NCBI GenBank assembly: GCA_902765625.1
Contig: CACXAO010000013.1
Location: forward strand, 1-44,775
Length of the DNA stretch: 44,775 nt
DNA from: an uncultured Ruminococcus sp.
GTDB lineage: Bacteria; Bacillota; Clostridia; Oscillospirales; Acutalibacteraceae
Direction: 5' to 3'
The number at the start of each line of letters is the position of its first letter. The stretch's first letter is position 1. This document shows, one piece after another, positions 13,702 through 30,408 of the stretch. The notes beneath the pieces were generated by a model. That model saw nothing but the letters and a program-made list of their open reading frames with translations. It had not been told where the DNA came from and did no database searches. A program made the position numbers and the translations under genes.

Positions 13702-15116
13702 GTGACGGAACTGATAGAACGAGTCGGACTGCCGATGTTTATCCAGCTGATAATTGAAGTCTGGAACGAGCTGATTTTGCTTATGCTGACCGGCGTAATG
13801 CTGGTAGGTAAATCGCAGGATAAGCACAACGAGCTTATGAGCAAAACGAAGATACCGCTTACAAACGAGCTGATAATTTTCTATCTGGCAGCGTTTTTTA
13901 TAATATGTTTGACATTATCACCCGCAGTTTAGGCAACGTTCCCTCGTCTGAATATTTGTACAAAACGTGTGTTTTTATGTACTACGCGGTCGGAGGCTTT
14001 CAGACGCTGTTGCTTCTTGAGGTAATAAAAAAGTATGTCGCCGAAAAAGCTCACAATGAATTGCTGAAAAAATGTATTATCGGGGTTCAGCTTCTGAATA
14101 TCGCAAATTATCTTTTGCTTATCGCTACTCCGTTCACCGAAACGATTTACTCTATTGACGAAAACAATACATATGTCCGTGCGTGGGGCTATTATATCTG
14201 GCAGGGAGTTACCATAGCGTCGTTTGTATTCATTCTCGTTGTTCTGCTTGCTCAGCGGAAGAACGTGGATAAATATATCAAACACGTTTTTATAGTTGCG
14301 GCGATTGTTCCCGTATTCGGAATCACCGGCGGTTTGTTTGTGTCTAAGGTCAGTCTCAATAATATCATGGTAACCCTTTCGGCGCTTCTGATATACATGA
14401 TTTACGAGAGAAACAAGACCGAGATTACCGTTCAAAACGCCTACGAGCTTGAAAAAACGCGGGTTGAGCTGATAGAAAAGCAGCTTGTCATCGAGCAGAA
14501 CAAGCAGGAGCTGCAGGAAAATAAAATCAGACTGCTCGTAGCGCAGATACAGCCGCACTTTATCTTTAATTCGCTTATGGCGCTGCAGGCAAAATGCACC
14601 GATAATCCGGAGCTGTACAACGGCATAAACAGCTTTGGCAAATACCTCCGAGCCAATTTTGAGGCGATGACGGACAATGATCTTATTCCGTTCACCGACG
14701 AGCTGAAAAACATCAAGGCGTACGTCCAGCTTGAGATGATGAACTACGGCGACAAGCTGCGCGTCGAATACGATATTGAGCTTGACCAGTTTATGCTGCC
14801 TGCGTTCTGTGTTGAGCCTTTGGTGGAGAACGCCATCCGCTACGGAGTGGGAACATACGAAAAGGGCGGTTTGGTTCAGATAATGGTGCGCGACGAACCC
14901 GACTGCATTCAGATCGAGGTCAAGGACGACGGCTCAGGAGGCAACAGGCTGACCGACGCGCAGGAGGGCCGCAAAAGCATCGGATTGGAGAACGTGCGGC
15001 TCAGGCTGAAAGCTCTCGATATGGGCGAGCTGAGCGTTTCGCAGGACGAAAGCGGAACAAGCGCGGTGATCCGACTGAAATACATGGAGGAAAACAGTGA
15101 GAACGATTACGATTGA
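13702..15116 (+). pseudogene. LytS-like sensor histidine kinase, interrupted by a single-base frameshift
   Basis: Two overlapping reading frames together encode one sensor kinase. The first (13702-13932) starts at GTG with AGAGGTGAG upstream and encodes two membrane helices ending in NELIIFYLAAFF. The second (from about 13896) continues YNMFDIITRSLGNV, then five more helices, a coiled coil (14450-14530) and a HisKA_7TM-type kinase. The H box is QIQPHFIFNSL (His near 14556), followed by the ATP-binding boxes VEPLVENAIRYGVG, VKDDGSGG and GLENVRLRL. The switch falls in the T6 run 13894-13899; a seventh T would give one continuous protein. The ATG at 13905 has no ribosome site, so an independent start is unlikely. 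It overlaps the response regulator by 20 bases. Confidence 0.8.
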
Positions 15117-15876: not shown

Positions 15877-17304
15877 TTGGTATTCACGTCACGGATTAAC
15901 CGTTTTTGGAGCCGACACAAATGGAGCATGCCGGCTTGCTTTATTTTGTCGCTTGCGTATACATGCGGCATTGTTGCTATGTGCTGCTTCCGCGGCTTTT
16001 CGGGAATGCAGGTGACCACGGGCTTCAGTCTGGGTGCGGATGTGGTCAGTCTCGCGGTATGCACGGCGCTGCTGTACAGTATCGCGCAGGACAAGGACGG
16101 CTTGAGCGCCTACACGCGAACCTTTGCATGGCTGATTTTTATGACCGCCTCGGTGCTGTTTACCGACGCTTCGTGGTGGATAGTCGACGGCATTAAGGAG
16201 CTGAGAGTCTGGAACGTGATAATAAACGTCCTCAATTTCTCGGTTACAACGCTGCTTGTCTTTTTCTTCTGGAGGTATGTGGTCACTTCGCTCAGGCTTA
16301 AAGGAAAATTCAAAAGGGTCGCAAATACTATTATGAACGTCCTGCTGATTCCTTCGGTCGCCGCCTGTCTTGCCAATTTATTTTTTGCGCTGTATTTTAA
16401 CGTCGACGCAGACGGCTTCTATCACCGCCGGCCTTTGTTTATGTGGAGTCAGGCGTATTTTGTTGTCGGTCTTGTCATAGTGATAATCGGCTTTATAATC
16501 TCAAAAACCTCGGTAAAGGAGAGGCTCATCACCGCCTCGTTTGTACTGATACCGATTGCGAATCAGATAATTACCTTTTATTCGTTCGAGCTGTCAACGG
16601 AGTACCCGGCAATGCTCGTTTCAATCGTGCTTGTATTCGGCGTTCTTGTCACAAAGCGCGAAAAAGACCTCATCGCTACCGAAAAGAAGCTTTACGAGGC
16701 AAAGGTCAGCGTTATGGTCAGTCAGATACAGCCGCATTTTATGTACAACGCGCTGACGTCGATCGCGATGATGTGCACCATCGATCCCGACACCGCTCAG
16801 GAGGCTACGGTCACCTTTGCAAAGTACCTTCGCGGCAACATGGATTCGCTCAAGCAAACCGCGCCGATCCCGTTTGAGCAGGAGCTTGAGCACCTGAAAA
16901 AATACCTGTATATAGAAAAGCTGCGCTTCGCAGATCTGCTCAATATCGAGTACGATATCCGGACGACAGACTTTGTTTTGCCGCAGCTGAGCATTCAGCC
17001 GCTTGTTGAGAACGCCGTCAAGCACGGCGTGGGAATGGCTGAGGACGGCGGCACGGTCAAAATCACAGCGCGCGAAACCGAAACCGCCTATGAGGTGATA
17101 ATCTCGGACGACGGCGTGGGCTTCGACACAAAAGCCAAAAGACCAAACGACGGACGTTCGCACGTAGGCATGGAAAATACCCGCAGGCGCATCAAGGAGA
17201 TGTGCGGCGGAGAGATAAAAATAGAAAGCGCGGTTGGCAAGGGCACAACCGCAACGGTCATTTTACCAAAGGAGGGACAGCGCAATGAAAATACTATGTC
17301 TTGA
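15877..17304 (+). CDS. LytS-like sensor histidine kinase (second of three)
   Basis: This 475-residue kinase has seven or eight N-terminal membrane helices (residues about 15-260) without a large extracellular domain, then a linker and a HisKA_7TM/HATPase module. The H box is SQIQPHFMYNALTSIAMMCTID. ATP-binding boxes are QPLVENAVKHGVG, SDDGVGF and GMENTRRRI. The catalytic half is strikingly similar to that of the third kinase at 19286, whereas the membrane halves differ. The start is a TTG at 15877 with GGAGGG at 15859-15864; no ATG or GTG in frame fits better. It overlaps the following response regulator by 20 bases. Confidence 0.87.
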   Translation: MVFTSRINRFWSRHKWSMPACFILSLAYTCGIVAMCCFRGFSGMQVTTGFSLGADVVSLAVCTALLYSIAQDKDGLSAYTRTFAWLIFMTASVLFTDASWWIVDGIKELRVWNVIINVLNFSVTTLLVFFFWRYVVTSLRLKGKFKRVANTIMNVLLIPSVAACLANLFFALYFNVDADGFYHRRPLFMWSQAYFVVGLVIVIIGFIISKTSVKERLITASFVLIPIANQIITFYSFELSTEYPAMLVSIVLVFGVLVTKREKDLIATEKKLYEAKVSVMVSQIQPHFMYNALTSIAMMCTIDPDTAQEATVTFAKYLRGNMDSLKQTAPIPFEQELEHLKKYLYIEKLRFADLLNIEYDIRTTDFVLPQLSIQPLVENAVKHGVGMAEDGGTVKITARETETAYEVIISDDGVGFDTKAKRPNDGRSHVGMENTRRRIKEMCGGEIKIESAVGKGTTATVILPKEGQRNENTMS

Positions 17305-19224: not shown

Positions 19225-19254
19225 TTGAAATTATCTGAGAATGTATGTTATAAT
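19225..19254 (+). promoter_or_regulatory. Promoter of the third two-component pair
   Basis: TTGAAA (19225-19230), an 18-base spacer and TATAAT (19249-19254), with TG at 19246-19247 as an extended -10. Confidence 0.75.
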
Positions 19255-19285
19255 AAGGCTAAAAGATATGTTTGGGGGTGGAAAA

Positions 19286-21073
19286 ATGAAGCGGAAGATA
19301 ATAACCGTAACCGCGCTTTTCCTTGTTTTTGCTTCCGTAGTAACGCTGTTCGCTGTAATAATCGCGCAGAAGCCGGAATTCAAGAACAAAAGCGCGCAAA
19401 AGGTATACATAGACGGCGTGTGTTCCGTCGAGGGCGGAGAATGGGAGAAAACGATTCCAGAAAAGATGACTGACGTCCGTTTTCATAACGCAACCATCCG
19501 CGGAAGCTTGTCTGAACCGATTAAACAGGGTCAAAAGCTTGTGATAATCTCAACCAACATTTGGTACAAGCTTGAGTCGGACGGTTTCAGCGACTCCAAC
19601 AGACGGCAGGATGACGGTTCGCCGCTGAAAGACACTCCCGGAACTTCGATCAAATATTTTGACCCTGAAAGCTTGGGCGACGAAGTAACCCTTGAGCTTT
19701 ATTATCCGTACACTCCTTTTTCGAACCGCGATTTGTCCGACCTGATAAATATTTATATTGCCGACGACAACGGCGTTTACGCTTTAATAATCAATAACCT
19801 GTTCTTACTGTTGATTACAGCGATTATTATCAGCTCGTTCGGATTGTTTGTATTCCCGATCGAGGGCGTGGTGCTGGGCGGAATAAACATGAGGTATTTC
19901 GCTTTTTCGGTGCTGAGCTTTGTCACGGGTATTCATCTTATATTCAAGATCCTTTATCCGTATCTGCCGCTTTGGATTGATGACCCTGTGCTGTGCATGA
20001 CGCTGGGAGAGTCGACGATTCATATTTTCTGCCTTTGCGTATTGCTGTTCATAAAGGCAACGCTGAAAAATCCAAAGCACGGTTTTATCAGCGATATTGT
20101 GCTTGCCGGATACACCTTTGTAGTCGCCCTTATTATTGTGTTCAGCTTAATCGGATTTCAGGATATGTATTCCTGCAAGCCTATTTCACACGCCGCTTTC
20201 ACAATCGGCTCGGTAATACTCTGCGTCTGTATGTCGAGGGAAATCAAGACCAACAAGGACGCAAAGCACGCGCTCTTTACGCTGATTCCTATAACGGCGG
20301 CGCTTGTGTTTGACGCGCTGAACGCTTATATCGGTTTTGCAAACTTCACCCTGCTTGAGCTTGGCACAGTTTTGGCGCTTGTTTATCAGATAGTAAATCT
20401 GGTTATCGACATGAGGCGGCAGTACAAAGAAGCGATACACTATCAGCAGATTCAAAAGGAGCTTTACGAGTCACGCGTAGCGATAATGGTCAGCCAGATT
20501 CAGCCGCATTTTCTCTATAATTCGCTGTCGTCGATCGCGATGATGTGCACCATCGACCCCGAAACGGCTCAGGAGGCTACTGTGACCTTTGCGGATTATC
20601 TGCGCGGCAACATGGATTCGCTCAAGCAAAAAACTCCCGTTCCTTTTGAAAAAGAGCTGGAGCATCTGAAAAAATATCTGTATATCGAAAAGCTTCGCTT
20701 CGGCAAGAAGCTCAATATCGTTTATGACATCCAAACCGATAAGTTTGTACTTCCGCAGCTCTCGGTTCAGCCGCTTGTTGAGAACGCCGTCAAGCACGGC
20801 ATCAGCAGAAAACGCGGAGGCGGCACACTGACAATCGCTACCCGTGAGACGGAGGACAGCTTCGAGGTCATCGTTTCGGACGACGGAAACGGATTTGATA
20901 CAAACGAGGTGAAGAATGACGGCAGGTCGCATATCGGCATGGATAACGTGCGCAGGCGCATAAAAGAGATGTGCGGCGGCACGGTGAAGATAGAAAGTAA
21001 AATCGGCGAGGGAACCGTCGCGACGGTAACTTTGCCAAAGGAGGGACAGAATAATGAGGATCCTGTGCGTTGA
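19286..21073 (+). CDS. LytS-like sensor histidine kinase with extracellular domain (third of three)
   Basis: The protein has about 595 residues. An N-terminal helix (KIITVTALFLVFASVVTLFAVII) leads to an extracellular region of about 140 residues, probably a jelly-roll of the 7TMR-DISM-extracellular type. Seven membrane helices follow (about 165-385), then a linker and kinase core with the H box SQIQPHFLYNSLSSIAMMCTID and ATP boxes QPLVENAVKHGIS, SDDGNGF and GMDNVRRRI. The C-terminal 230 residues are nearly the same as in the second kinase, while the sensor is entirely different. The ATG at 19286 has GGGGGTGG just upstream; an ATG at 19268 overlaps that site. It overlaps the next gene by 20 bases. 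Confidence 0.88.
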   Translation: MKRKIITVTALFLVFASVVTLFAVIIAQKPEFKNKSAQKVYIDGVCSVEGGEWEKTIPEKMTDVRFHNATIRGSLSEPIKQGQKLVIISTNIWYKLESDGFSDSNRRQDDGSPLKDTPGTSIKYFDPESLGDEVTLELYYPYTPFSNRDLSDLINIYIADDNGVYALIINNLFLLLITAIIISSFGLFVFPIEGVVLGGINMRYFAFSVLSFVTGIHLIFKILYPYLPLWIDDPVLCMTLGESTIHIFCLCVLLFIKATLKNPKHGFISDIVLAGYTFVVALIIVFSLIGFQDMYSCKPISHAAFTIGSVILCVCMSREIKTNKDAKHALFTLIPITAALVFDALNAYIGFANFTLLELGTVLALVYQIVNLVIDMRRQYKEAIHYQQIQKELYESRVAIMVSQIQPHFLYNSLSSIAMMCTIDPETAQEATVTFADYLRGNMDSLKQKTPVPFEKELEHLKKYLYIEKLRFGKKLNIVYDIQTDKFVLPQLSVQPLVENAVKHGISRKRGGGTLTIATRETEDSFEVIVSDDGNGFDTNEVKNDGRSHIGMDNVRRRIKEMCGGTVKIESKIGEGTVATVTLPKEGQNNEDPVR

Positions 21074-21823
21074 CGACGAACCGCTTGCTCTGCAAATGCT
21101 GATGATATCCATTCAAAAAGCCAAGCCCGACGCCGAGGTCGACGGCTTTGAGGAGCCGGAGGATCTGATTGAGGAGGCGGAGAAGAACGGCTGCGACATC
21201 GCGTTTCTCGACATCCACATGAGCGGAATGGACGGCGTAGAGGCGGCGAAGAAGCTGAAAGAGATAAACCCGAAGATGACATTATTTTTGTGACGGGCTA
21301 CTCCGAATACGCGGGCGAGGCGATGCGGCTGCACGCGAGCGGCTATATTATGAAGCCGGTGAACAAAGAAAAGGTTGCCGCAGAGCTTGAGGATTTGCGT
21401 TTCCCGATAGTTCCAAAGCAAAACGCGCTGCTCAGGGTGCAGTGCTTCGGAAACTTCGACGTGTTCACTCCCGACGGCAAGCCGGTTCATTTTGAGCGAA
21501 GCAGAGCGAAGGAGGTATTCGCCTATCTTGTGCACCGCCACGGAAGCTCCTGCACCAAAAAAGAGCTTGCGGCAGCTTTGTTTGAGGATATGCCTTACGA
21601 TAACAAGCAGCAGATCCATCTACAGAAGATCATATCCGCGATGATGAAGGCATTCAGAGAGGCAGGCGCAGAGAAGGTGATTCATAAGTCGTATAACAGC
21701 ATGTCTGTCAACGTAGACCTTATCGACTGCGACTACTACCGCTTTGAAGAGCTGGACGCCGGAGCTGTCAACGCCTATCAGAACGAGTACATGAGTCAGT
21801 ATTACTGGGCTGAATTTTTCTGA
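21054..21823 (+). pseudogene. Response regulator, receiver plus SARP-like output, frameshifted (third)
   Basis: The first frame (21054-21293) encodes the receiver up to INPKM, including Asp7/Asp8 and phospho-acceptor Asp53 in FLDIHMSG, then ends in TLFL-stop. The second frame resumes with FVTGYSEYAGEA and runs through the conserved Lys and the whole output domain to 21823. Alignment with the intact paralogue (INPKMNIIFVTG) shows that one A is missing after the ATG codon at 21276-21278; restoring it gives NIIFVTG and one continuous 257-residue protein. As it stands the receiver is truncated and the output domain lacks a ribosome site. Either true decay or a consensus error. Confidence 0.88.
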
Positions 21824-22016: not shown

Positions 22017-22045
22017 TTGCAAAACAAATAGTAATAATGTATAAT
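22017..22045 (+). promoter_or_regulatory. Promoter of the STAS-NRPS operon
   Basis: TTGCAA (22017-22022), a 17-base spacer and TATAAT (22040-22045). The STAS start is at 22087 with AAAGGAGA before it. No other promoter is evident until after 30408, so the five-gene unit is probably one transcript. Confidence 0.7.
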
Positions 22046-22086: not shown

Positions 22087-22386
22087 ATGAATCTTACAGT
22101 TACATCTGAAAACAAGGTTTACACAATCGCCATAACAGGCAGAATCGATACACTTACTGCGCCCGAGCTTGAGAGCAAGTTCCGCGAAATCGAGAAAAAC
22201 GCCGAGAAGCTTATTTTTGATATGCGTGAGGTCGAGTACATTTCATCAGCGGGAATGAGAGTTATCGTCGCGGCACACAGAGCAATGCTGCCGAAGGACG
22301 GACTTGTTCTCAGAGGACTGACCAAAAACGTCCGCACAATCATAAATCTGACAGGCTTTAATAATATTCTGAATATTGAGGAATAA
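22087..22386 (+). CDS. STAS-domain anti-sigma-factor antagonist (SpoIIAA/RsbV-like)
   Basis: This 99-residue protein is a single STAS domain of the SpoIIAA/RsbV type: LTVTSENKVYTIAITGRIDTLTAPELESKF, the strand KLIFDMREVEYISSAGMRVIV and a C-terminal NLTGFNNIL helix. The serine pair in YISSAGMR is at the position phosphorylated by RsbW/SpoIIAB kinases and dephosphorylated by RsbU/SpoIIE phosphatases. It is the first gene of the operon, 3 bases before the NRPS, and the operon also encodes two RsbW-like domains and one PP2C-type phosphatase. No sigma factor is encoded, so the final target may be elsewhere or not a sigma factor. Confidence 0.93.
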   Translation: MNLTVTSENKVYTIAITGRIDTLTAPELESKFREIEKNAEKLIFDMREVEYISSAGMRVIVAAHRAMLPKDGLVLRGLTKNVRTIINLTGFNNILNIEE

Positions 22387-22389
22387 GAG

Positions 22390-25300
22390 ATGAAAAAATA
22401 CCCGCTATCAAAAACCGAGTACGGGATTTATATCGAGCAGACAACGCGCGGCGACTGCGCCTATAATCTTCCGTTAATAATCGGTTTGCCCGAAGATGTT
22501 GATACAGACAAATTCGAAAATGCCGTTGACGCTGTTGTTCAGAACCGTCAGACGCTGCTGACGTCGTTTGGCGTTGACGAAAAAGGAGAAGTATATAAAT
22601 ATCATCGTTTCGACACAGTACAGATCAAGCATATCAACGCGGACGATTTTGAGCCGTATGACTTTGTCGCGCCCTTTGATTTGCATAACGACTGTCTGTG
22701 CCGTTTTTTTATTGTAACTACGTCAAGCGGAAAGTACTTTTTCTTCGATATCCATCATATCGTTTTTGACGGTACCTCATGCCAGGTTTTCCTTTCCGAG
22801 ATCGACCGTGCGTATAACGGAGGAGAGCTTAATGCCGAGACATTCACAGCCGACGACTTTGCTTTGGATGAAAAGCAGCGCATAAACAGCGAGGAATATG
22901 TCAAGGCAAAAGAGTATTATCAGAGCGTGTTTGACGGAGTAGACGCCGACGCCTCGTTATTTACAGACAAGAATGAGCGTAAGTCAGGCTCAGTGGAGAT
23001 GGTTCATTCCTTTGAGACGGTCGATTCAGGCTCGCTTAAAGCGCTCTCAAAAAAGTATGGGGTAAAGCTCAGCACGGTATTCAACGCGGCGTTCTCGTTT
23101 TTGCTCGGTAAATACACCAACAGTACGCAGGTTCTCTATTCCACCGTACATCACGGAAGGGACGAAAGAGTAAAAAACGCGGTCGGAATGTTCGTAAAGA
23201 CATATCCCGTTTACGCCGAGATTTCTGACGATAAGGAGCTGGGCAGTTTTCTTAAAGAACTGAACGGGCACATCGAATCGAACCGCGGGAACGACCTGTA
23301 TTCATTCGCGGACTTCTGCGCTGATTTCAGGCTCAATCCGTCCGTCCTGTTTGCGTATCAGGGCGATATGATCACGGAGATGGATTTCTGCGGCGGCAGG
23401 CAGAAGGTCAAGCTGCTGCCTATGAAAGACCCGAAGAGCGGTTTTGAGCTGACGGTATGGCGTGAGAACGGCAGATTCACAGCGCACGCCGAGTATGATC
23501 CGAGTCTTTATAATGATGAAATAATCCGTACGATGCTCGAGAGCTTTGATAAGATACTCTCCGATATGCTGCACGCTGAAAAGCTCGCTGATATCGATAT
23601 GCTGACCGAAAAGCAGCGCGGTAAGATTGAAAACAACAATAAGAACGAAACTGAGTATGAGATAACCGACGTTGTGACCATGTTCCGGCGTCAGGCGGAG
23701 AAAACCCCGGATAATATCGCGGCAGTGTATCTCGATAAGGAGTATACCTACAGAGAGCTTGACCGTGTTTCCGAGAATATCGCGGGTTATCTGAAGTCAA
23801 AGGGGATCGGCAGAGGAGACGTTGCGTCCGTACTCATTCCGAGGTCTGAATATATGCCGACAGCGTCTCTCGGCATCCTCAAAACGGGCGCAGGCTATCA
23901 GCCTCTTGACCCGAGCTATCCCGTTGAGCGCCTTGAATTTATGATCGGAGACGCGGACGCGAAGTTCCTTGTAGCCGACAGAAACCTGATGGACAGGCTT
24001 CCGAATTACGACGGCCCCGTATTGTTTACCGACGAGATCGCTAAGCTTCCCGACGCGGAAAATATTTCCGAAAAACCTCAGCCCGACGATCTGTTCATCA
24101 TGCTCTACACCTCCGGTTCAACAGGCGTTCCCAAGGGCGTTATGCTTGAGCACCGCAACCTGTGCTGCTTCTGCGAGTGGTACAGGAGCTTTTATCAGCT
24201 TGACGAAACGAGCAGGGTCGCGGCGTACGCCAGCTACGGCTTTGACGCGAATATGATGGATATGTATCCTGCGCTTACAAGCGGAGCGGCGGTTCATATC
24301 ATCGCCGAGGATATCCGTCTTGATCTTCTCGCGATCAGGGATTATTTTGAGCGGAATAAAAACACCCACAGCTTTATGACAACTCAGGTCGGACGGCAGT
24401 ACGCAGACCTTTTCCCGGACGCAGAATATCCGCGTCATCTCTCGGTAGGCGGAGAAAAGCTTGTTCCGGTCGTTCCGCCTGCGGGCTATAATTTCTATAA
24501 CGGCTACGGTCCTACTGAGTGCACGATTTTTACGAATGTTTACAAGGTCGACAGGCTCTGCGAGCGCGTGCCGATAGGCAGACCCCTCAATAACCTAAAG
24601 CAGTATGTCGTTGATAAAAGCATGTGGATTTTACCCTTCGGCGTACCGGGCGAGCTTATTGTCGCAGGACATCAGGTCGGCAGAGGCTATCTCAACCGTC
24701 CCGAACAAAAGGCGTTTATCAAAAATCCGTTTACCGATGAAGCAGGCTATGAGAGAGCGTACCGCACAGGCGATATCGTGCGTATGCTTCCCGACGGAAC
24801 GATAGACTTTGTCGGCAGAAACGACGGTCAGGTCAAAATCCGCGGCTTCCGCATCGAGCTTTCGGAGGTTGAGCAGATCATCCGCCGGTTCGAGGGCATT
24901 AAGGACGCAACGGTACAGGCGTTTGACGAAGCAGGCGGCGGAAAATTTATTGCGGCATATGTCGTGTCCGACAACAAGGTCGATATCGGGGCGATGAACG
25001 ATTTTATCAGAGCGAACAAGCCTCCGTATATGGTGCCTGCCGTTACGATGCAGATCGACTGCATTCCGCTCAACCAGAACCAGAAGGTCAACAAGCGCGC
25101 TCTGCCTGTTCCCGAAAAGGAAGCGGACGAGATCACAGCGCCCGAAAACGAAACTCAGCAGAAGATATTTGACAGTGTGTCTGAGGTTATCGGCACAAAG
25201 AATTTCGGTACCACGACCGATATTTTTGACGCGGGTCTTACATCCATCGGAGCCATCAAGCTCAATGTGCTTTTGTCGTCGGCGTTTAACGTACCCGTTT

Positions 25301-25719
25301 CGATTCAGGATCTGCGCAAAAACAGCACTATCCTTGCTCTTGAAAAATTCCTTGCGGAAGCCGACGGCGCAAAGACATATGAAATCAAATCCGATTATCC
25401 GATCACCCGGACGCAGAACGGCATATTTGTCGCGTGCATCGCGAGTCCCGACACCACGATGTACAACATTCCGTTCCTTGTATCGCTGGGCGGCGGAGTA
25501 GATATACCGCGTCTTGAAAAGGCGGTCAACAATTGGCTCATAACGTCAGCAAATACGTTGACGAGATCCACGAAGTCGATACAGGCGACGTCCTGCTCAC
25601 GGGAAGCACAGGCTTCCTCGGCGCTCATGTGCTCAGACATCTTATCGAAAAAACCGATAAAAAAATCTACTGTCTGCTGCGCGGCAGCGATATGGACGAC
25701 CGCCTCAAGAGCATTTTGA
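22390..25719 (+). CDS. Non-ribosomal peptide synthetase, C-A-T plus truncated second C domain
   Basis: Domains in order: condensation (about 1-415; active-site HHIVFDG, His122/His123), adenylation (about 425-910; A3 YTSGSTGVPKG near 572, A5 NGYGPTE near 703, A7 YRTGDI, A10 NQNQKVNKRALP), a carrier domain (about 925-995; pantetheine serine in DAGLTSIGAI near 950), and the first 45 or so residues of a second condensation domain (YPITRTQNGIF...IPRLEKAVN). After that the frame leaves the family and the last 60 or so residues are nonsense. The next meaningful sequence is a reductase domain in another frame. A starting C domain suggests N-acylation of the first residue. The gene begins 3 bases after the STAS gene. 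The ancestral enzyme probably had a second C-A-T module and a reductase, now deleted or shifted. Confidence 0.88.
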   Translation: MKKYPLSKTEYGIYIEQTTRGDCAYNLPLIIGLPEDVDTDKFENAVDAVVQNRQTLLTSFGVDEKGEVYKYHRFDTVQIKHINADDFEPYDFVAPFDLHNDCLCRFFIVTTSSGKYFFFDIHHIVFDGTSCQVFLSEIDRAYNGGELNAETFTADDFALDEKQRINSEEYVKAKEYYQSVFDGVDADASLFTDKNERKSGSVEMVHSFETVDSGSLKALSKKYGVKLSTVFNAAFSFLLGKYTNSTQVLYSTVHHGRDERVKNAVGMFVKTYPVYAEISDDKELGSFLKELNGHIESNRGNDLYSFADFCADFRLNPSVLFAYQGDMITEMDFCGGRQKVKLLPMKDPKSGFELTVWRENGRFTAHAEYDPSLYNDEIIRTMLESFDKILSDMLHAEKLADIDMLTEKQRGKIENNNKNETEYEITDVVTMFRRQAEKTPDNIAAVYLDKEYTYRELDRVSENIAGYLKSKGIGRGDVASVLIPRSEYMPTASLGILKTGAGYQPLDPSYPVERLEFMIGDADAKFLVADRNLMDRLPNYDGPVLFTDEIAKLPDAENISEKPQPDDLFIMLYTSGSTGVPKGVMLEHRNLCCFCEWYRSFYQLDETSRVAAYASYGFDANMMDMYPALTSGAAVHIIAEDIRLDLLAIRDYFERNKNTHSFMTTQVGRQYADLFPDAEYPRHLSVGGEKLVPVVPPAGYNFYNGYGPTECTIFTNVYKVDRLCERVPIGRPLNNLKQYVVDKSMWILPFGVPGELIVAGHQVGRGYLNRPEQKAFIKNPFTDEAGYERAYRTGDIVRMLPDGTIDFVGRNDGQVKIRGFRIELSEVEQIIRRFEGIKDATVQAFDEAGGGKFIAAYVVSDNKVDIGAMNDFIRANKPPYMVPAVTMQIDCIPLNQNQKVNKRALPVPEKEADEITAPENETQQKIFDSVSEVIGTKNFGTTTDIFDAGLTSIGAIKLNVLLSSAFNVPVSIQDLRKNSTILALEKFLAEADGAKTYEIKSDYPITRTQNGIFVACIASPDTTMYNIPFLVSLGGGVDIPRLEKAVNNWLITSANTLTRSTKSIQATSCSREAQASSALMCSDILSKKPIKKSTVCCAAAIWTTASRAF

Positions 25720-26682
25720 TGTACTACTTCGAGACTCCCTGCGAGGAGCTTTTCGGCAGCCGGATATTTACCGTCAGCGGCGATATTACCGACCGCGAAA
25801 CGGTGATGAAGCTATCCGAAATCAACTTCGGCACCGTATTCAACTGCGCCGCCTGCGTAAAGCACTTTGTCAGGGACGATTTGCTCGACCGCATCAACTG
25901 GCACGGCGTTGAAAACCTCATTGACCTATGCGTTGAAAGCGGCCGCAGACTCGTTCAGGTTTCAACCGTGAGCGTCGCAGGCTCAAGCGTAAACGGCGCG
26001 TTCAGCGTAGACAGGAAAATCCGTGAGAACGAGCTTTACTTCGGTCAGAATCTCGACAATAAATACGTTTACACAAAGTTCAAGGCAGAGGAGGCGCTGC
26101 TCAAGGCGGTTGACGAGAGAGGTCTCGACGGCAGGATCGTCCGCGTCGGCAACCTCATGAGCCGTTACAGCGACGGCCTTTTCCAGATAAACTCAGTCAC
26201 CAACGGCTTTATGCGCGGACTCAGGGCATAAAGCCGCGCTCGGCATGGTTTCCGTATCGGCGCTTGACGAGATGGTCGAGTTCTCGCCGATAGACTGCAC
26301 GGCAGCGGCTGTTGTAACGCTCGGCGGCGCAGACAGCAGCTTCACCGTGTTCCACGCTACAAACGGACACAGAGTCCAGATGGGCGATATTATTGAGGCG
26401 ATGAACCAAACAGGTATTCCGGTAAAAATCGTTTCCGTGAAGGAGTTCACTGAGGTATTCAATAAAGCGCTTGCCGACGAAAAGCTCAGCGAGTATATTT
26501 CGCCGCTGATCTCATATCAGGCATCAGATATGAATACCATTGAGTTCTTTATCGACTACGACAACACCTTTACCACAAAGGCGCTGTACCGTCTCGGCTT
26601 CAAGTGGCCGATCATAAACGAAAAGTATCTTGAAAACGTCTTTGAGTCGCTTTCGGCGCTCGCGTTCTTTGATGAGGTTTGA
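25530..26682 (+). pseudogene. Thioester reductase (terminal release) domain of the NRPS, frameshifted
   Basis: Two frames encode one NAD(P)H-dependent thioester reductase domain. The first (25533-26231) has the Rossmann loop DVLLTGSTGFLGAHVL, NCAACVKH, STVSVAG and the catalytic Tyr-x-x-x-Lys in YVYTKFKAEEA. It ends shortly after NSVTNGFMRGLRA. The second (from about 26233 to 26682) continues ALGMVSVSALDEMVEFSPIDCTAAAVV and the C-terminal substrate-binding part. Near 26231 two bases seem to be missing (or one added). Such domains release the tethered peptide as an aldehyde or alcohol. No ribosome site precedes 25533, confirming that it was once the C-terminal part of the NRPS. Confidence 0.85.
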
Positions 26683-26683
26683 T

Positions 26684-28438
26684 ATGCAGAGAAACGATTA
26701 TCTGATCAAACGCAAGTTCAACAGTTATCTCATACCGGGCGTGCTGATGGTCATGGCTATGCAGCTCGGAAATATCGTTGACAGTATACTCGTCAGCGGC
26801 ATAATTGATATCGACGGCATGACGGCGATTTCTCTGAGCCTGCCCGTGCTGTACTTTGCCCAGATCATCGGCTTTGCGATCGGCGTTGGCGGAGCTGTAA
26901 CTATTTCCGTTATGCTGGGAAAACGGCAGATAAAAGAAGCCTCGGGAGTGTTCTCGGTATGTATGATCGCGGACGTCGCTTTGTCGCTGATATTCTCGGC
27001 GCTTGCACCCGTGGTTTCCTCGCCGCTCGCGCATTTTTTGGCGCAGACTCCGCGGCTTGAGGAACTGCTGATGCCGTACATTTATATGTACCTGCTGTTT
27101 ACTCCGCTTATCAACGTTTGCATTCTGGTATCAAACGTTGTGACGATAGATAACTGTCCTAAGCTCGGCGCGTCATGCCTTGTTATCGCGACTGTTGTCA
27201 ATCTCGGGCTTGATTACTTCTTCCTGAAATATACCTCGCTCGGGATGTACGGCGCAGGACTCTCAACTGTGATCGGCTACGGCGTAGGAAATTTTGTACT
27301 TATTCCATACTTCCTTTCAAAAAAGCGCATGCTGACGTTAAATCTCAAAGAGGGACTCCGTCAGTTGCGCACCCTCTGGAAGGTAGTAAAAGCGGGCGCG
27401 TCTCAGGTGTCATTCCTTATGATGATAATTCTGCAGTATTTTGTGCTCAACACGTTTATCCAGAGTACGCTCGGCCCCGACAATACGGCTGTATATTCCG
27501 TGTGCATGAATTCCGTAGAGATCATAAAGCTCTTTATCGAGGGTATTATCGGGGTGATCCAGACAATCGCGGGCGTGCTGTACGGCGAAAAGGATTATTA
27601 CGGGATCAGGCGGCTTGTGCGACGCACGGTTATCATCGTTTCCTTTGTCGTAGCGGCGCTCATGGCGGTGTTTATTGTATTCCCGGACGCTGTTTTGACG
27701 GTATTCTCGTTCAATAAGTACGAGATTTACGACGCGGCAAGGCTTTGCGTGCAGCTGTTCAGCCTGACGTTTATCTTCTTCGCCGCAAACCGCATTACTC
27801 AGGTCTATTACCAGACCACGCTTAAAACCTCGCTTTCCACAATCAACACAGTTCTGCAGGGGTTTGTGTATCTGCTGCCGCTGTCCGTTCTCTTTATCGG
27901 AACGATTGGAATAATGGGCGTCAGCGTTGCCGCCGCGCTCACCGAGGCGCTGGCGTTCTTTACGGTGTTTGTGTTCCGGATCATTCAGCAAAAGCGCAGC
28001 AAGCTGCCTCAGAAGGGCTTCCTTATGATACCCGACAAGGACGGCGACAGCCTGTGCGATATTACGATAAAGAGCACTGAACAGGACGCTGTCGAGGTTT
28101 CGAAGAAGCTTATCGAATCTTGCGGGGAAAACGGAGTTCCGTCCGAGACCTCCGGCATAATAGGAGTAGCGGCAGAGGAGCTCGCGGTCAATATCTCGCG
28201 TTACGGATACAAAAAGCCCGGTCTGAGCTATGTCGACATCAATCTTTCCAGAGTGGACGACAAGCTTATCCTGCGCTTGCGCGACGACGGAGTCCCGTTC
28301 AATCCGACTGAATACAAGTCAGACGAGGACGACGAATTTCTAATGACGGGCATTGAAATGGTGCGCCGCATTACCGATAAGCTCAGCTATACGCGGGTTC
28401 TGAATATGAACAACACGGTGATAGAGGTTTCCTTATGA
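26684..28438 (+). CDS. MATE-family efflux transporter fused to an RsbW-like ATPase domain
   Basis: The 584-residue protein joins two unrelated parts. Residues 1-450 are a MATE-type transporter with about twelve membrane helices (for example MAMQLGNIVDSILVSGIIDIDGMTAISLSLPV at the first helices). Residues about 455-584 are a cytoplasmic GHKL/HATPase_c_2 domain of the anti-sigma-kinase type: EELAVNISRYGY as N box, RDDGVPFNPTEY as G1 box, and GIEMVRRITDKLSY near the end. The kinase part would be expected to phosphorylate or bind the STAS protein encoded by the operon, linking it to a membrane exporter. The ATG at 26684 follows GAGGTT and lies 1 base after the reductase stop. The MATE part probably exports the NRPS product. 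Confidence 0.88.
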   Translation: MQRNDYLIKRKFNSYLIPGVLMVMAMQLGNIVDSILVSGIIDIDGMTAISLSLPVLYFAQIIGFAIGVGGAVTISVMLGKRQIKEASGVFSVCMIADVALSLIFSALAPVVSSPLAHFLAQTPRLEELLMPYIYMYLLFTPLINVCILVSNVVTIDNCPKLGASCLVIATVVNLGLDYFFLKYTSLGMYGAGLSTVIGYGVGNFVLIPYFLSKKRMLTLNLKEGLRQLRTLWKVVKAGASQVSFLMMIILQYFVLNTFIQSTLGPDNTAVYSVCMNSVEIIKLFIEGIIGVIQTIAGVLYGEKDYYGIRRLVRRTVIIVSFVVAALMAVFIVFPDAVLTVFSFNKYEIYDAARLCVQLFSLTFIFFAANRITQVYYQTTLKTSLSTINTVLQGFVYLLPLSVLFIGTIGIMGVSVAAALTEALAFFTVFVFRIIQQKRSKLPQKGFLMIPDKDGDSLCDITIKSTEQDAVEVSKKLIESCGENGVPSETSGIIGVAAEELAVNISRYGYKKPGLSYVDINLSRVDDKLILRLRDDGVPFNPTEYKSDEDDEFLMTGIEMVRRITDKLSYTRVLNMNNTVIEVSL

Positions 28439-30408
28439 GAAAATCCGTATTTTTTAAGCTGGCGCTGCTGATTTTGCCGATCGTGCTGGCGTATGAGGTC
28501 GCACAGCTGTATTTGGAATACTTGTCGATCTACAACGCGACGCTTGATTCGGTCACAAAAATAACGCAGAGCACAGCGCAGACGGCAGCGAGTGAGTTTA
28601 TGTTTTTCGATCCTGACAATCCCGATGATGCAGAGCTCTTCAGCACTCAGTTCGGCGATCTGTGCGAGCGGTTGGGCGTCACCTATCTTTATGCCGAGGA
28701 GATCGACTTGGACGCACAATCGGAGAAGTATCTCGCCATCGGTTTCGGTGATGACGCTTCCGATATAGTCAAAGAGAAACGTCATCCGGGCGTGACGGTA
28801 GAAGGCTTTCTCAACGAGGCGCAGTTGAAGGTCAGCTCGGGAGAAGAGGAAAGTATGGTTTCGCATCAGAAAACCATGCTCGATGACACGCTGATCTGTT
28901 TCCGGAGGATAGATACTTTTTTGGACGCCGGCAGCGGAAAAATCATCAAGCATGAAAAGCCCGTTCTGATCGGCGCCGAAGTATCCTTTTCGTCCCTGAT
29001 GAAACGGCTTCTGAGGCAATTTAACGGAACGGCTGCTTACGACCTGATGTTTACATTTCTGCTGACAGTTCTGATTTTTGCGATATTTTATTTCAAGGTA
29101 AACGGACCGATAAAGAAAATCAGCAAAAGAATGGAGAACTTTGTCAATGACCGCGGCAAGGACGTGGAAAAGCTGCAGGTAAAGGGCAATGACGAGCTTG
29201 CCGAAATGTCGCGTTCGTTTAATCTCATGACCGAGGAAATCGACAAATACATTGAGGATATCGACGCTCTCAACAAGGAAAAGCACACTCAGGCGGCGGA
29301 GCTTGAGATCGCGAGAAATATCCAGACGGGTCTGTTAAAGCCCTCTGACTATGAGAACGGCAGCGTGTGTATCAGCGCTATGATGCGCGCGGCAAAGAAC
29401 GTCGGCGGCGATTTATACGATTATCAGGTGCTTGAGAACGGCAAGGTATTCATAGCCGCAGCCGACGTATCGGGCAAGGGCATTTCCGCGGCGCTGTTTA
29501 TGTCGCGCGCAATAACTCTTCTGCACCAGTATGCCCTTCTCGGATATTCACCTGCCAAAATGCTCGGCGAATACAACAATACGCTTGCCGAATCAAACCC
29601 GAACGGTCTGTTCATCACTACGTTTGTAGCGGTCTTTGACCCCAAAACGGGCGAGCTGACTTACTCAAACGCCGGTCATAACCGTCCGTATGTAATCTCG
29701 GACAGTCTGATAACGCTCGACGGAGCGGCAGGAATGGCTGCGGGTATTTTTGCAGGTTTTGAGTATGAGCAGGAAACGGTTGCGCTCAAGCAAAACGACG
29801 TTGTATTCCTTTATACAGACGGAGTAAACGAGGCAGAAAGCACCTCGGGTGAGCAGTTCGGCACAGAAGCGCTCGAAAACAGGCTCGAGGAACATATCGG
29901 GTTACAAAGCGATAATGTTTCCGGCGATATTTTCAAAACGATTGAGGAATTTTCGGACGGAGCGGTTCAGAGCGACGACATCACGATACTTACGCTAAAG
30001 GTGAAGCAGCTGCCCTCGTACAGGGAGATCACCGTCAGGAATCACCCCGAAAATCTCACTGAGCTCAACGATATGATAAACGGCGAGCTGCGAATTTCCG
30101 ACGAGATAAAAGCACAGCTTTTGCTTATCGCGGAGGAGTTGTTTGTAAATATTTGTTCATACGCTTACGGAGGGAAAGAGGGAGACATTACCGTCGCGTT
30201 TGAAACGGACGCCGAAAACGTCACGCTGACCTTTACCGATTCGGGCAAACCGTTTGACCCTACGGCGAATGTTGTTGATATTAATGATTACGACCATGAA
30301 AACAGCATAGGCGGACTGGGATGTTTTCTTGCGTTTGAGCTTAGCGACGTGTATTCTTACTCATATCTGGACGGAAAGAATATCCTTAAAATTACAAAGC
30401 GTCTTTAA
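28435..30408 (+). CDS. Membrane PP2C/SpoIIE-type phosphatase with HAMP and RsbW-like domains
   Basis: The protein has 657 residues. A membrane helix (7-27), an extracellular sensor of about 170 residues, a second helix (about 203-225) and a HAMP linker precede a PP2C-type serine phosphatase (about 290-520) with GGDLYDY, AADVSGKGISAALFMS and the acidic DDITILTL. A C-terminal HATPase_c_2 domain (about 530-657) has LLIAEELFVNICSYAYGG, TDSGKPFDP and GGLGCFLAFELSD. It is an RsbU/SpoIIE-like phosphatase expected to dephosphorylate the STAS protein in response to an external signal; the extra RsbW-like domain could oppose it. Start and upstream stop overlap as ATGA, so translation is coupled to the MATE fusion. 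Confidence 0.9.
   Translation: MRKSVFFKLALLILPIVLAYEVAQLYLEYLSIYNATLDSVTKITQSTAQTAASEFMFFDPDNPDDAELFSTQFGDLCERLGVTYLYAEEIDLDAQSEKYLAIGFGDDASDIVKEKRHPGVTVEGFLNEAQLKVSSGEEESMVSHQKTMLDDTLICFRRIDTFLDAGSGKIIKHEKPVLIGAEVSFSSLMKRLLRQFNGTAAYDLMFTFLLTVLIFAIFYFKVNGPIKKISKRMENFVNDRGKDVEKLQVKGNDELAEMSRSFNLMTEEIDKYIEDIDALNKEKHTQAAELEIARNIQTGLLKPSDYENGSVCISAMMRAAKNVGGDLYDYQVLENGKVFIAAADVSGKGISAALFMSRAITLLHQYALLGYSPAKMLGEYNNTLAESNPNGLFITTFVAVFDPKTGELTYSNAGHNRPYVISDSLITLDGAAGMAAGIFAGFEYEQETVALKQNDVVFLYTDGVNEAESTSGEQFGTEALENRLEEHIGLQSDNVSGDIFKTIEEFSDGAVQSDDITILTLKVKQLPSYREITVRNHPENLTELNDMINGELRISDEIKAQLLLIAEELFVNICSYAYGGKEGDITVAFETDAENVTLTFTDSGKPFDPTANVVDINDYDHENSIGGLGCFLAFELSDVYSYSYLDGKNILKITKRL

Follow-up and report, generated by a model that had tools for sequence, protein, structure and literature searches.

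Partner-switching modules of the RsbV/RsbW/RsbU type normally control sigma factors, and the question raised by the present locus is what such a module regulates when its genes stand in one row with a non-ribosomal peptide synthetase (NRPS) and a MATE exporter. The locus lies at positions 22087 to 30408 of a stretch of 44,775 nt, called the window here, from an uncultured Ruminococcus sp. (assembly GCA_902765625.1, contig CACXAO010000013.1, forward strand). The window is one contig (C13) of a metagenome-assembled genome (MAG) with 93 contigs and completeness of 88.9%. A first-pass annotation linked an RsbV/W/U-type module to an NRPS and an exporter and saw no sigma factor encoded alongside. 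This description stands, and the phosphosite of the STAS protein is conserved.

Gene Content and Proposed Output

The features of the locus, all on the + strand, are as follows, with the two RsbW-like domains designated by their Pfam name, HATPase_c_2.

22017..22045, +, predicted sigma-A-type promoter 5' of the STAS gene: TTGCAA (22017-22022), 17-nt spacer, TATAAT (22040-22045); consensus match
22087..22386, +, STAS-only protein (RsbV/SpoIIAA-like) of 99 aa with phosphosite region EYISSAGMR; Pfam STAS 53 bits, aligns with RsbV
22390..25719, +, N-terminal part of the NRPS as assembled: condensation (C), adenylation (A) and peptidyl carrier protein (PCP) domains and the first ~45 residues of the second C domain, after which the frame is lost; Pfam, MAFFT
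25531..25532, +, junction with 2,929 nt gone compared with five orthologues (rest of C2, A2, PCP2); MAFFT
25533..26231, +, main piece of the NRPS reductase (R) domain, in another frame; NAD_binding_4 105 bits
26245..26682, +, C-terminal tail of the R domain, returned to the first frame by a 1-nt insertion at 26230; unmatched in Pfam
26684..28438, +, MATE protein fused to an RsbW-like HATPase_c_2 domain with degenerate G2 box; MatE 83 bits
28088..28405, +, HATPase_c_2 domain of the MATE fusion; 41.3 bits, above the Pfam cut-off
28435..30408, +, membrane sensor phosphatase: helix, predicted extracellular alpha/beta domain, helix, HAMP, PP2C (SpoIIE) and canonical RsbW-like HATPase_c_2; SpoIIE 160 bits
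30046..30399, +, HATPase_c_2 domain of the PP2C protein, G2 box GGLG; 59.9 bits

The genes are tightly packed, as annotated before: 3 nt separate STAS from the NRPS and 1 nt the NRPS stop from the MATE start, and MATE and PP2C overlap by 4 nt (ATGA). The start of the MATE-HATPase gene is ATG at 26684, while the listed ORF begins at TTG (26630). No Pfam match to a sigma factor was found among the scanned ORFs of the 22087-30408 interval. The spacing and the conserved promoter pattern are consistent with one transcript from STAS through PP2C. Since the whole order STAS-NRPS-MATE/HATPase-PP2C/HATPase was seen in five genomes of the same genus, the arrangement in the window is more than chance. 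The earlier view of an NRPS operon with built-in partner-switching genes thus keeps its domains and gene order, but not its NRPS as one open gene.

Our answer, which is tentative, is that the partner switch encoded by the locus acts on the exporter, and in some lineages on the assembly line as well, in place of a sigma factor. It is favoured because NRPS genes adjoined 36 and STAS genes lay near 27 of 40 fused MATE genes, against none near 20 unfused ones; because the second glycine of the G2 box is present in 0 of 48 MATE-linked domains and in 53 of 54 separate HATPases; and because the SS phosphosite is found in all 69 STAS domains compared. Further grounds are proteins in which STAS is fused to a condensation domain (STAS-C), whose genes adjoin a MATE-HATPase gene in 5 of 5 cases, the rarity of sigma genes (2 of 112 loci) together with a sigma-A-type promoter pattern in 8 of 8 upstream regions, PP2C at 10 and STAS at 6 of 11 MATE-HATPase loci outside the family, and correlated distances of MATE-HATPase, PP2C and STAS proteins over 33 loci. 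What was seen directly comprises the gene set, the fusions, the conserved motifs, the linkage, the lack of linked sigma genes and the promoter pattern. In addition, a similar gene set occurs in an archaeon, and archaea are not known to have bacterial sigma (sigma-70) factors. This archaeal set (PMC2812497) and the SiaC-SiaD pair, a precedent for a STAS-like output on an enzyme (PMC8457831), are compared below as far as the accessible parts of the two papers describe them.

As for how such a switch might work, we infer the interactions, the direction of the switch, the signal and the product as follows. The sensor protein would supply kinase and phosphatase alike: the conserved serine of STAS would be phosphorylated by the canonical RsbW-like domain of the sensor and stripped of its phosphate by the PP2C domain once the extracellular domain is in its signalling state. 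STAS without its phosphate would bind the degenerate RsbW-like domain, which forms the cytoplasmic end of the exporter, and thereby gate the MATE protein. Where a second contact joins STAS to the first condensation domain of the NRPS, the assembly line would be docked at the exporter, and a reactive short product would be made and exported together. That STAS is in this way a docking clutch, an adaptor between the condensation domain and the pseudo-kinase domain of the exporter with phosphorylation deciding attachment, is a more doubtful proposal than that of the output itself. On this proposal, the STAS part of the STAS-C fusion of one family would be such an adaptor, with STAS-C and MATE-HATPase as a two-gene unit. 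The NRPS of the window is broken as assembled, and therefore the mechanism describes the family and not the window copy.

Distribution of the Gene Set

The MATE-HATPase query had a match at E <= 1e-33 in 88 of 150 genomes of the genus including its own, or 87 of 149 without it; one match among the 87 (G375) ends before the HATPase part. Forty loci were taken from the 128 places listed outside the own genome, picked by score and not by neighbours, and the sample is uneven, as it holds 32 of the 70 best-scoring places and 8 of the other 58. In the four loci of the 40 with no adjoining NRPS (L154, L184, L188, L189), a contig end lies 0.5-1.3 kb off on one side and the open side is without an NRPS. 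In addition to the 27 loci with STAS, another HATPase was near in 19 and PP2C in 19. When only the 22 loci with both flanks of at least 6 kb are counted, NRPS was present in 22, STAS in 16, another HATPase in 14 and PP2C in 12. The 20 control loci with unfused MATE, drawn from the wider family and not from the same genus, had neither NRPS, STAS, HATPase nor PP2C (0/20 for each). Gene order is permuted among the genus loci, and the MATE frame is split in L168. Loci L122-L126 are identical in contig to L063, L068, L067, L065 and L064 and were excluded from pooled counts; L151 and L132 share a contig. The complete locus L063 encodes one STAS, one canonical kinase domain, one phosphatase and one degenerate HATPase on the exporter, while other loci hold two or three STAS genes.

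Another 40 loci of the genus were fetched for PP2C. Fifteen of them contain NRPS, MATE-HATPase and switch genes, four a MATE-HATPase without visible NRPS (L073 with open flanks; L074, L083 and L100 cut), and one (L097) an NRPS without visible MATE. STAS and PP2C only were present in 11, several of which are on short stretches (L062, L084, L089, L091), and the remaining nine have PP2C without STAS, NRPS or MATE-HATPase. In 149 genomes of the genus (own genome excluded), PP2C at E <= 1e-100 and MATE-HATPase at E <= 1e-33 were found together in 46, PP2C only in 1, MATE only in 41 and neither in 61, counts uncorrected for kinship; a switch acting in trans would be compatible with this table. Of the 11 genomes behind loci L127-L137, 10 gave a PP2C match at E <= 1e-40. 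Distances among MATE-HATPase, PP2C and STAS proteins correlate over the 33 loci in a Mantel test that ignores tree structure (r 0.59-0.75, with 0 of 2000 permutations as high).

Other genes also lie within some loci. A triosephosphate-isomerase-like gene lies between MATE-HATPase and STAS in L158 (10849-11598), and genes of the same size occur there in L159, L162, L163 and L167. A PGA_cap (capsule synthesis) protein is encoded between PP2C-HATPase and STAS in L178 (6080-7264), with genes of similar size in L175, L177, L179 and L180.

At the family level, 20 loci were compared (L032-L051), mostly full-length matches with several cut ones, and one of them the second copy of the own genome; L019 and L021, with a match to residue 542, are outside the 20. 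An NRPS was found in 10 and some switch gene in 14 of them within the stretch; no NRPS was seen in the stretches of the other 10, including L051 of the same genus. Among 398 genomes of the phylum, the MATE-HATPase profile reached its last positions in seven besides the own genome. Eleven loci outside the family were taken from this search (L235-L245), three of which match only to about residue 545. PP2C was present at 10 of these loci, STAS at 6, an NRPS with adenylation domain at 1 (L244, next to MATE) and a STAS-C fusion at 3 (L243, L244, L245). Judged by gene content, the phylum-wide core is exporter plus switch, with the NRPS as the usual companion in this genus, since outside the family PP2C is found at 10 of 11 loci but an adenylation-domain NRPS at only one.

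Two candidate rules were rejected on these counts. The switch is not always with an NRPS, as 11 of the 40 PP2C loci have STAS and PP2C only; nor is the MATE-HATPase, with 36 of 40 in the genus, none seen in 10 of 20 loci at the family level and no adenylation-domain NRPS in 10 of 11 outside it. The first-pass annotation had named homologous loci with the regulatory genes and the NRPS apart from each other as evidence against it, and such loci were found; the pairing of MATE-HATPase with an NRPS is near constant only in close relatives within the genus.

The same counts bear on the best-surviving alternative, unlikely in our judgement, in which only the exporter is controlled: STAS would open or close MATE through the HATPase with no contact to the NRPS, which would merely be the usual cargo-maker in the genus. 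It agrees with the excess of PP2C and STAS over NRPS outside the family, with the higher count of switch genes than of NRPS genes at the family level, and with L073, where STAS-MATE-PP2C-STAS is kept with no NRPS. The condensation domain fused to STAS at five loci speaks against it.

The own genome carries a second, different unit (L043; G000:C18, 4596-13348) with carboxylesterase, an NRPS of 997 aa with A and C domains in which no reductase domain was found, STAS, MATE-HATPase, solo HATPase and SpoIIE. In L041 (10952-12538), a protein of 529 aa consists of STAS, APH-type phosphotransferase and canonical RsbW-like HATPase and is encoded beside a MATE-HATPase gene, with no NRPS in view; L042 and L044 have proteins of a similar size with both STAS and HATPase.

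STAS-Condensation Fusions

In one distant family of the phylum, a protein of 530-534 aa consists of STAS and a condensation domain, with Pfam scores of 42-54 bits for STAS and 136-137 bits for Condensation in two proteins. The full-length fusion was found at five loci in 4 of the 398 phylum genomes. It is next to the MATE-HATPase gene in all five, with an A-PCP-C NRPS gene between them in L244, and overlaps the start of that gene in three. The motif YHxxxDG is conserved in 5/5, and so is the serine aligned with Ser56 of RsbV, which we take to be the phosphosite; L255 reads YIASAG. The window and the five orthologues share the order of the fusion, STAS and then the C domain with a 3-nt gap, and a search with the fusion gives a window match that passes the STAS stop codon and continues into the C domain of the NRPS in the same frame. 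Genes around L245, L254 and L255 include RND pumps, DUF6056 proteins and isopropylmalate synthase. The fusion suggests that STAS can sit on a condensation domain and that the condensation domain is a possible STAS target. Putative gating of synthesis or export, as supposed in the first pass, finds partial support in this fusion and in that of MATE with HATPase.

RsbW-Like Domains, STAS and Sensor

The window exporter belongs to MATE both by family (MatE) and by fold, with MATE structures matched at E 4e-12; the listed fold matches of the MATE-HATPase model are MATE and related flippases. Its HATPase is assigned through Pfam (37 bits against a cut-off of 27), and a PDB sequence search with this domain gave chance matches only. 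Two classes of RsbW-like domains can be distinguished by their boxes. In the separate or PP2C-linked HATPases (n = 54), the N-box Glu is kept in 51 and Asn in 54, the G1 Asp in 53, and the first and the second G2 Gly in 53 each; the N, G1 and G2 boxes of RsbW-type kinases are thus present. In the MATE-linked domains (n = 48), Glu is kept in 47, Asn in 43, Asp in 46 and the first Gly in 46, and the second Gly in none, which sets them apart from canonical RsbW. In 51 further MATE tails read by eye, the glycine pair was seen in L239 (GGLG) and L244 (GIGL) only; in L243 just the second of the two glycines is present. The stretches fetched for L239, L243 and L244 showed no separate HATPase. L235 and L241 have a degenerate MATE-linked domain and likewise no separate HATPase was found there, so that a canonical MATE-linked box replacing a separate HATPase is only hinted at.

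By its motifs the MATE-linked HATPase is probably a non-kinase. The first-pass annotation had taken it for the kinase of STAS; the motifs point instead to the PP2C-linked or solo domain. The same motifs bear on the next alternative, a shade less plausible than control of the exporter alone, in which the MATE is the sensor: the MATE-HATPase, as a kinase, would read transport flux or product and phosphorylate STAS, PP2C would reverse this, and STAS would act on the NRPS or elsewhere. The mostly conserved N and G1 boxes of the MATE-linked domain would suit it, as would L239 and L244 with their glycine pairs and no separate HATPase found in either stretch. Against it, the second G2 glycine is lost in 48 of 48 domains and in all but 3 of the 51 further tails, another HATPase is present in 14 of the 22 fully flanked loci, and in L235 and L241 the domain is degenerate although no separate HATPase was seen.

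The substrate and the phosphatase have the motifs expected of an RsbV/W/U-type module. The 69 STAS domains with the SS phosphosite are those found at >25 bits in the loci compared, and the window STAS aligns with RsbV and has the phosphorylatable serine. The metal motifs of PP2C, searched as loose patterns in 63 domains, were found as TDG in 61, DxxGKG in 58, GGD in 53 and DDxT in 51. The AF2 model of the PP2C protein has a long helix, an alpha/beta domain (~63-184), a second long helix, a HAMP region, a coil, PP2C and HATPase. Both AF2 models are of middling confidence (pLDDT 76.4 and 77.5, pTM 0.68 and 0.45), with 77.5 and 0.45 for the PP2C model. The best fold match of the latter is the RsbU-RsbW fusion of Rv1364c (3ke6, E 1e-18), followed by RssB and SiaA; the NCBIfam SiaA score of the window PP2C is 48 bits, far under the cut-off of 700. 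At the STAS-C locus L243, a distant PP2C carries a dCache domain.

Sigma Factors and Promoter

Five sigma proteins of the own genome were used as queries against 112 loci, a set without the distant loci L235-L256. A sigma gene was found in two (L075, L082), neither with MATE-HATPase or NRPS, and the linked cognate sigma gene of a sigma-controlling switch is thus missing from the MATE-HATPase and NRPS loci among those scanned. TTGnnn-17-TATAAT is at the same spot in 7 of 8 STAS upstream regions, the window included, and the eighth (L063) has TATTAT, by consensus match. An ordinary sigma-A-type promoter probably drives the operon.

Ordinary partner switching, in which an unlinked sigma factor would be freed and transcribe the NRPS operon or other genes, is improbable on these results. 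Its domains are those of sigma-controlling modules, and the own genome encodes a SigBFG-type factor above the cut-off on contig C4 and another one beside a HATPase on C1, the latter in an arrangement that we take to resemble the spoIIA operon. Against this stand the sigma genes in only 2 of 112 loci, neither of them with MATE-HATPase or NRPS, the promoter pattern, the similar gene set in Methanobrevibacter, and the fusions of STAS-C and MATE-HATPase. Control of a sigma factor, the default for such genes, was downgraded because of the missing linked sigma genes, the promoter pattern and the fusions.

NRPS and Its Probable Product

Intact orthologues of the same genus (L063, L064, L065, L067, L068) have one open NRPS gene of 7,227-7,233 nt with the layout C-A-PCP-C-A-(PCP)-R; the second PCP of L063 was missed by the search used. 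Aligned with these five by MAFFT, the window NRPS is short of 2,929 nt behind position 25531, which make up most of C2-A2-PCP2, and of another 6 nt behind 25694; a single additional nt sits at 26230. These changes split the reductase over two other ORFs, and C-A-PCP modules ending in R in one open frame are a feature of the five orthologues and not of the window copy. No long repeat flanking the 25531 junction was seen within 30-40 nt on each side. By sequence, true decay and MAG misassembly or chimera are indistinguishable here as the cause of the break. In L062 (1590-3955), with the closest PP2C (70% identity), no NRPS-MATE block separates STAS from PP2C, which follows at once, a frame break interrupts STAS early on, and the G1 stretch is missing from the HATPase linked to PP2C. 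In L069, a short remnant like the first C domain sits between STAS and PP2C.

The weakest alternative, that the genes share no functional link, were gathered by shared transfer and left a decaying remnant in the window, takes up the broken NRPS, L062 with neither NRPS nor MATE between its broken STAS and G1-less PP2C-HATPase, and the remnant in L069, but is very improbable given that the fusions are of two kinds, the motifs conserved, the spacing tight and the set recurrent across families.

The product of the intact NRPS is probably an N-acyl dipeptide aldehyde or its pyrazinone, as judged from its domains and from the dipeptide aldehydes of R. bromii. The best score of the intact NRPS of L063 is to AusA, with 1145 bits and the AusA cut-off of 2500 unreached.

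A few neighbouring features of the window were also recorded. A row of three LytS-type histidine kinases is encoded upstream (13905-15113, 15877-17301, 19241-21070), at least two of them with response regulators. The response-regulator gene (21054-21823) beside the LytS-type kinase (19241-21073) is split by a frame break near 21290, which, like the NRPS breaks, may be decay or assembly error. A phage-type integrase gene (339-1535) lies near a tRNA-Ser gene (2405-2493), as at the edge of an integrative element.

Weighing the Exporter as Proposed Output

Several observations weigh against the exporter as the output of the switch. Six of the 22 fully flanked MATE-HATPase loci have no STAS, HATPase or PP2C within 9 kb, and the switch would therefore act in trans or be absent there; the genome of L136, with NRPS and MATE-HATPase, gave no PP2C match at E <= 1e-40. 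The 11 of 40 PP2C loci with STAS and PP2C only mean that the module has, or had, other outputs. Directly 3' of STAS genes that are not fused, an NRPS was counted in just 21 of 85 cases, and in 4 of 29 in the 40-locus sample. L046 encodes STAS, NRPS, PP2C and a MATE without recognised HATPase. Correlated distances are also expected from shared descent. Since the N box (Glu 47, Asn 43) and the G1 Asp (46) are mostly kept in the 48 MATE-linked domains, these may still bind ATP and phosphorylate. As to the clutch, L244 is the only STAS-C locus with an A-domain NRPS, L245 has a lone adenylate-forming ORF about 7.5 kb off, and no A-domain gene was seen around L243, L254 and L255.

Known Systems and Significance

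Rv1364c (3ke6) resembles the sensor phosphatase in having RsbU (PP2C) and RsbW domains in one protein, but it serves sigma F and is not known to be linked to a transporter or NRPS. The aureusimine synthetase AusA has two modules and reductive release like the NRPS of the locus, which differs by its extra initial C domain. SypE of Vibrio fischeri, a response regulator, is not known to be a membrane sensor. As described in the accessible text, it combines serine kinase and phosphatase in a single protein, with one STAS protein, SypA, whose unphosphorylated form acts on an unknown target, and with biofilm as output (PMC8256260). SiaABCD of Pseudomonas aeruginosa is closer in its logic: phosphatase SiaA and kinase SiaB act on STAS-like SiaC, which binds and activates the enzyme SiaD when unphosphorylated, and no sigma factor is named in the available part of the paper (PMC8457831). 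It differs in its diguanylate cyclase output, in kinase and phosphatase as separate proteins, in the lack of transporter and NRPS, and in SiaC being a DUF1987 protein (PMC8457831).

The most similar gene set was described in 2010 for Methanobrevibacter ruminantium M1 (mru0066-mru0071), with a two-module NRPS with initial C domain, an anti-sigma factor antagonist, a MatE protein and two serine phosphatases (PMC2812497). A reductase domain is given in the legend of Fig. S8, and a thioesterase in the main text (PMC2812497). By the text of the paper, the two loci share NRPS, STAS, MatE and serine phosphatase in gene content; control of NRPS expression is proposed there, and a MATE-HATPase or STAS-C fusion is unmentioned in the description used for comparison (PMC2812497). 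The locus, put forward in the first-pass annotation as the best candidate for an undescribed system in the window, thus has a similar counterpart in print. A survey of rumen biosynthetic gene clusters counted NRPS clusters and reported archaeal-Firmicutes similarity, and its accessible text contains "anti-sigma" and "STAS" 0 times (PMC8241843). The products of the rup pathway of Ruminococcus bromii are dipeptide aldehydes (PMC12327764). Already known, as far as these texts go, are thus a similar gene set (PMC2812497) and partner switches acting on enzymes (PMC8457831). In the open-access literature, no paper on partner switching with NRPS, on STAS with a condensation domain and NRPS, or on at least four of MATE, HATPase, STAS, NRPS and SpoIIE together was found, nor were the MATE-HATPase fusion as NRPS companion, the two HATPase classes or the STAS-C fusion, which is no proof of absence.

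Here the exporter, and in one family a condensation domain too, has a dedicated signalling module physically attached. NRPS pathways are usually seen as transcriptionally regulated. Should the switch act post-translationally, this could be how gut bacteria confine the making of a reactive product to times when export is possible, and STAS would be a natural NRPS-to-exporter adaptor. If true, the finding would also suggest a role for orphan RsbV/W/U modules, whose targets are left open for several systems in the accessible text of PMC8256260. The gene structures suggest that in Ruminococcus-type gut bacteria export, and perhaps synthesis, of such a product is switched by protein phosphorylation.

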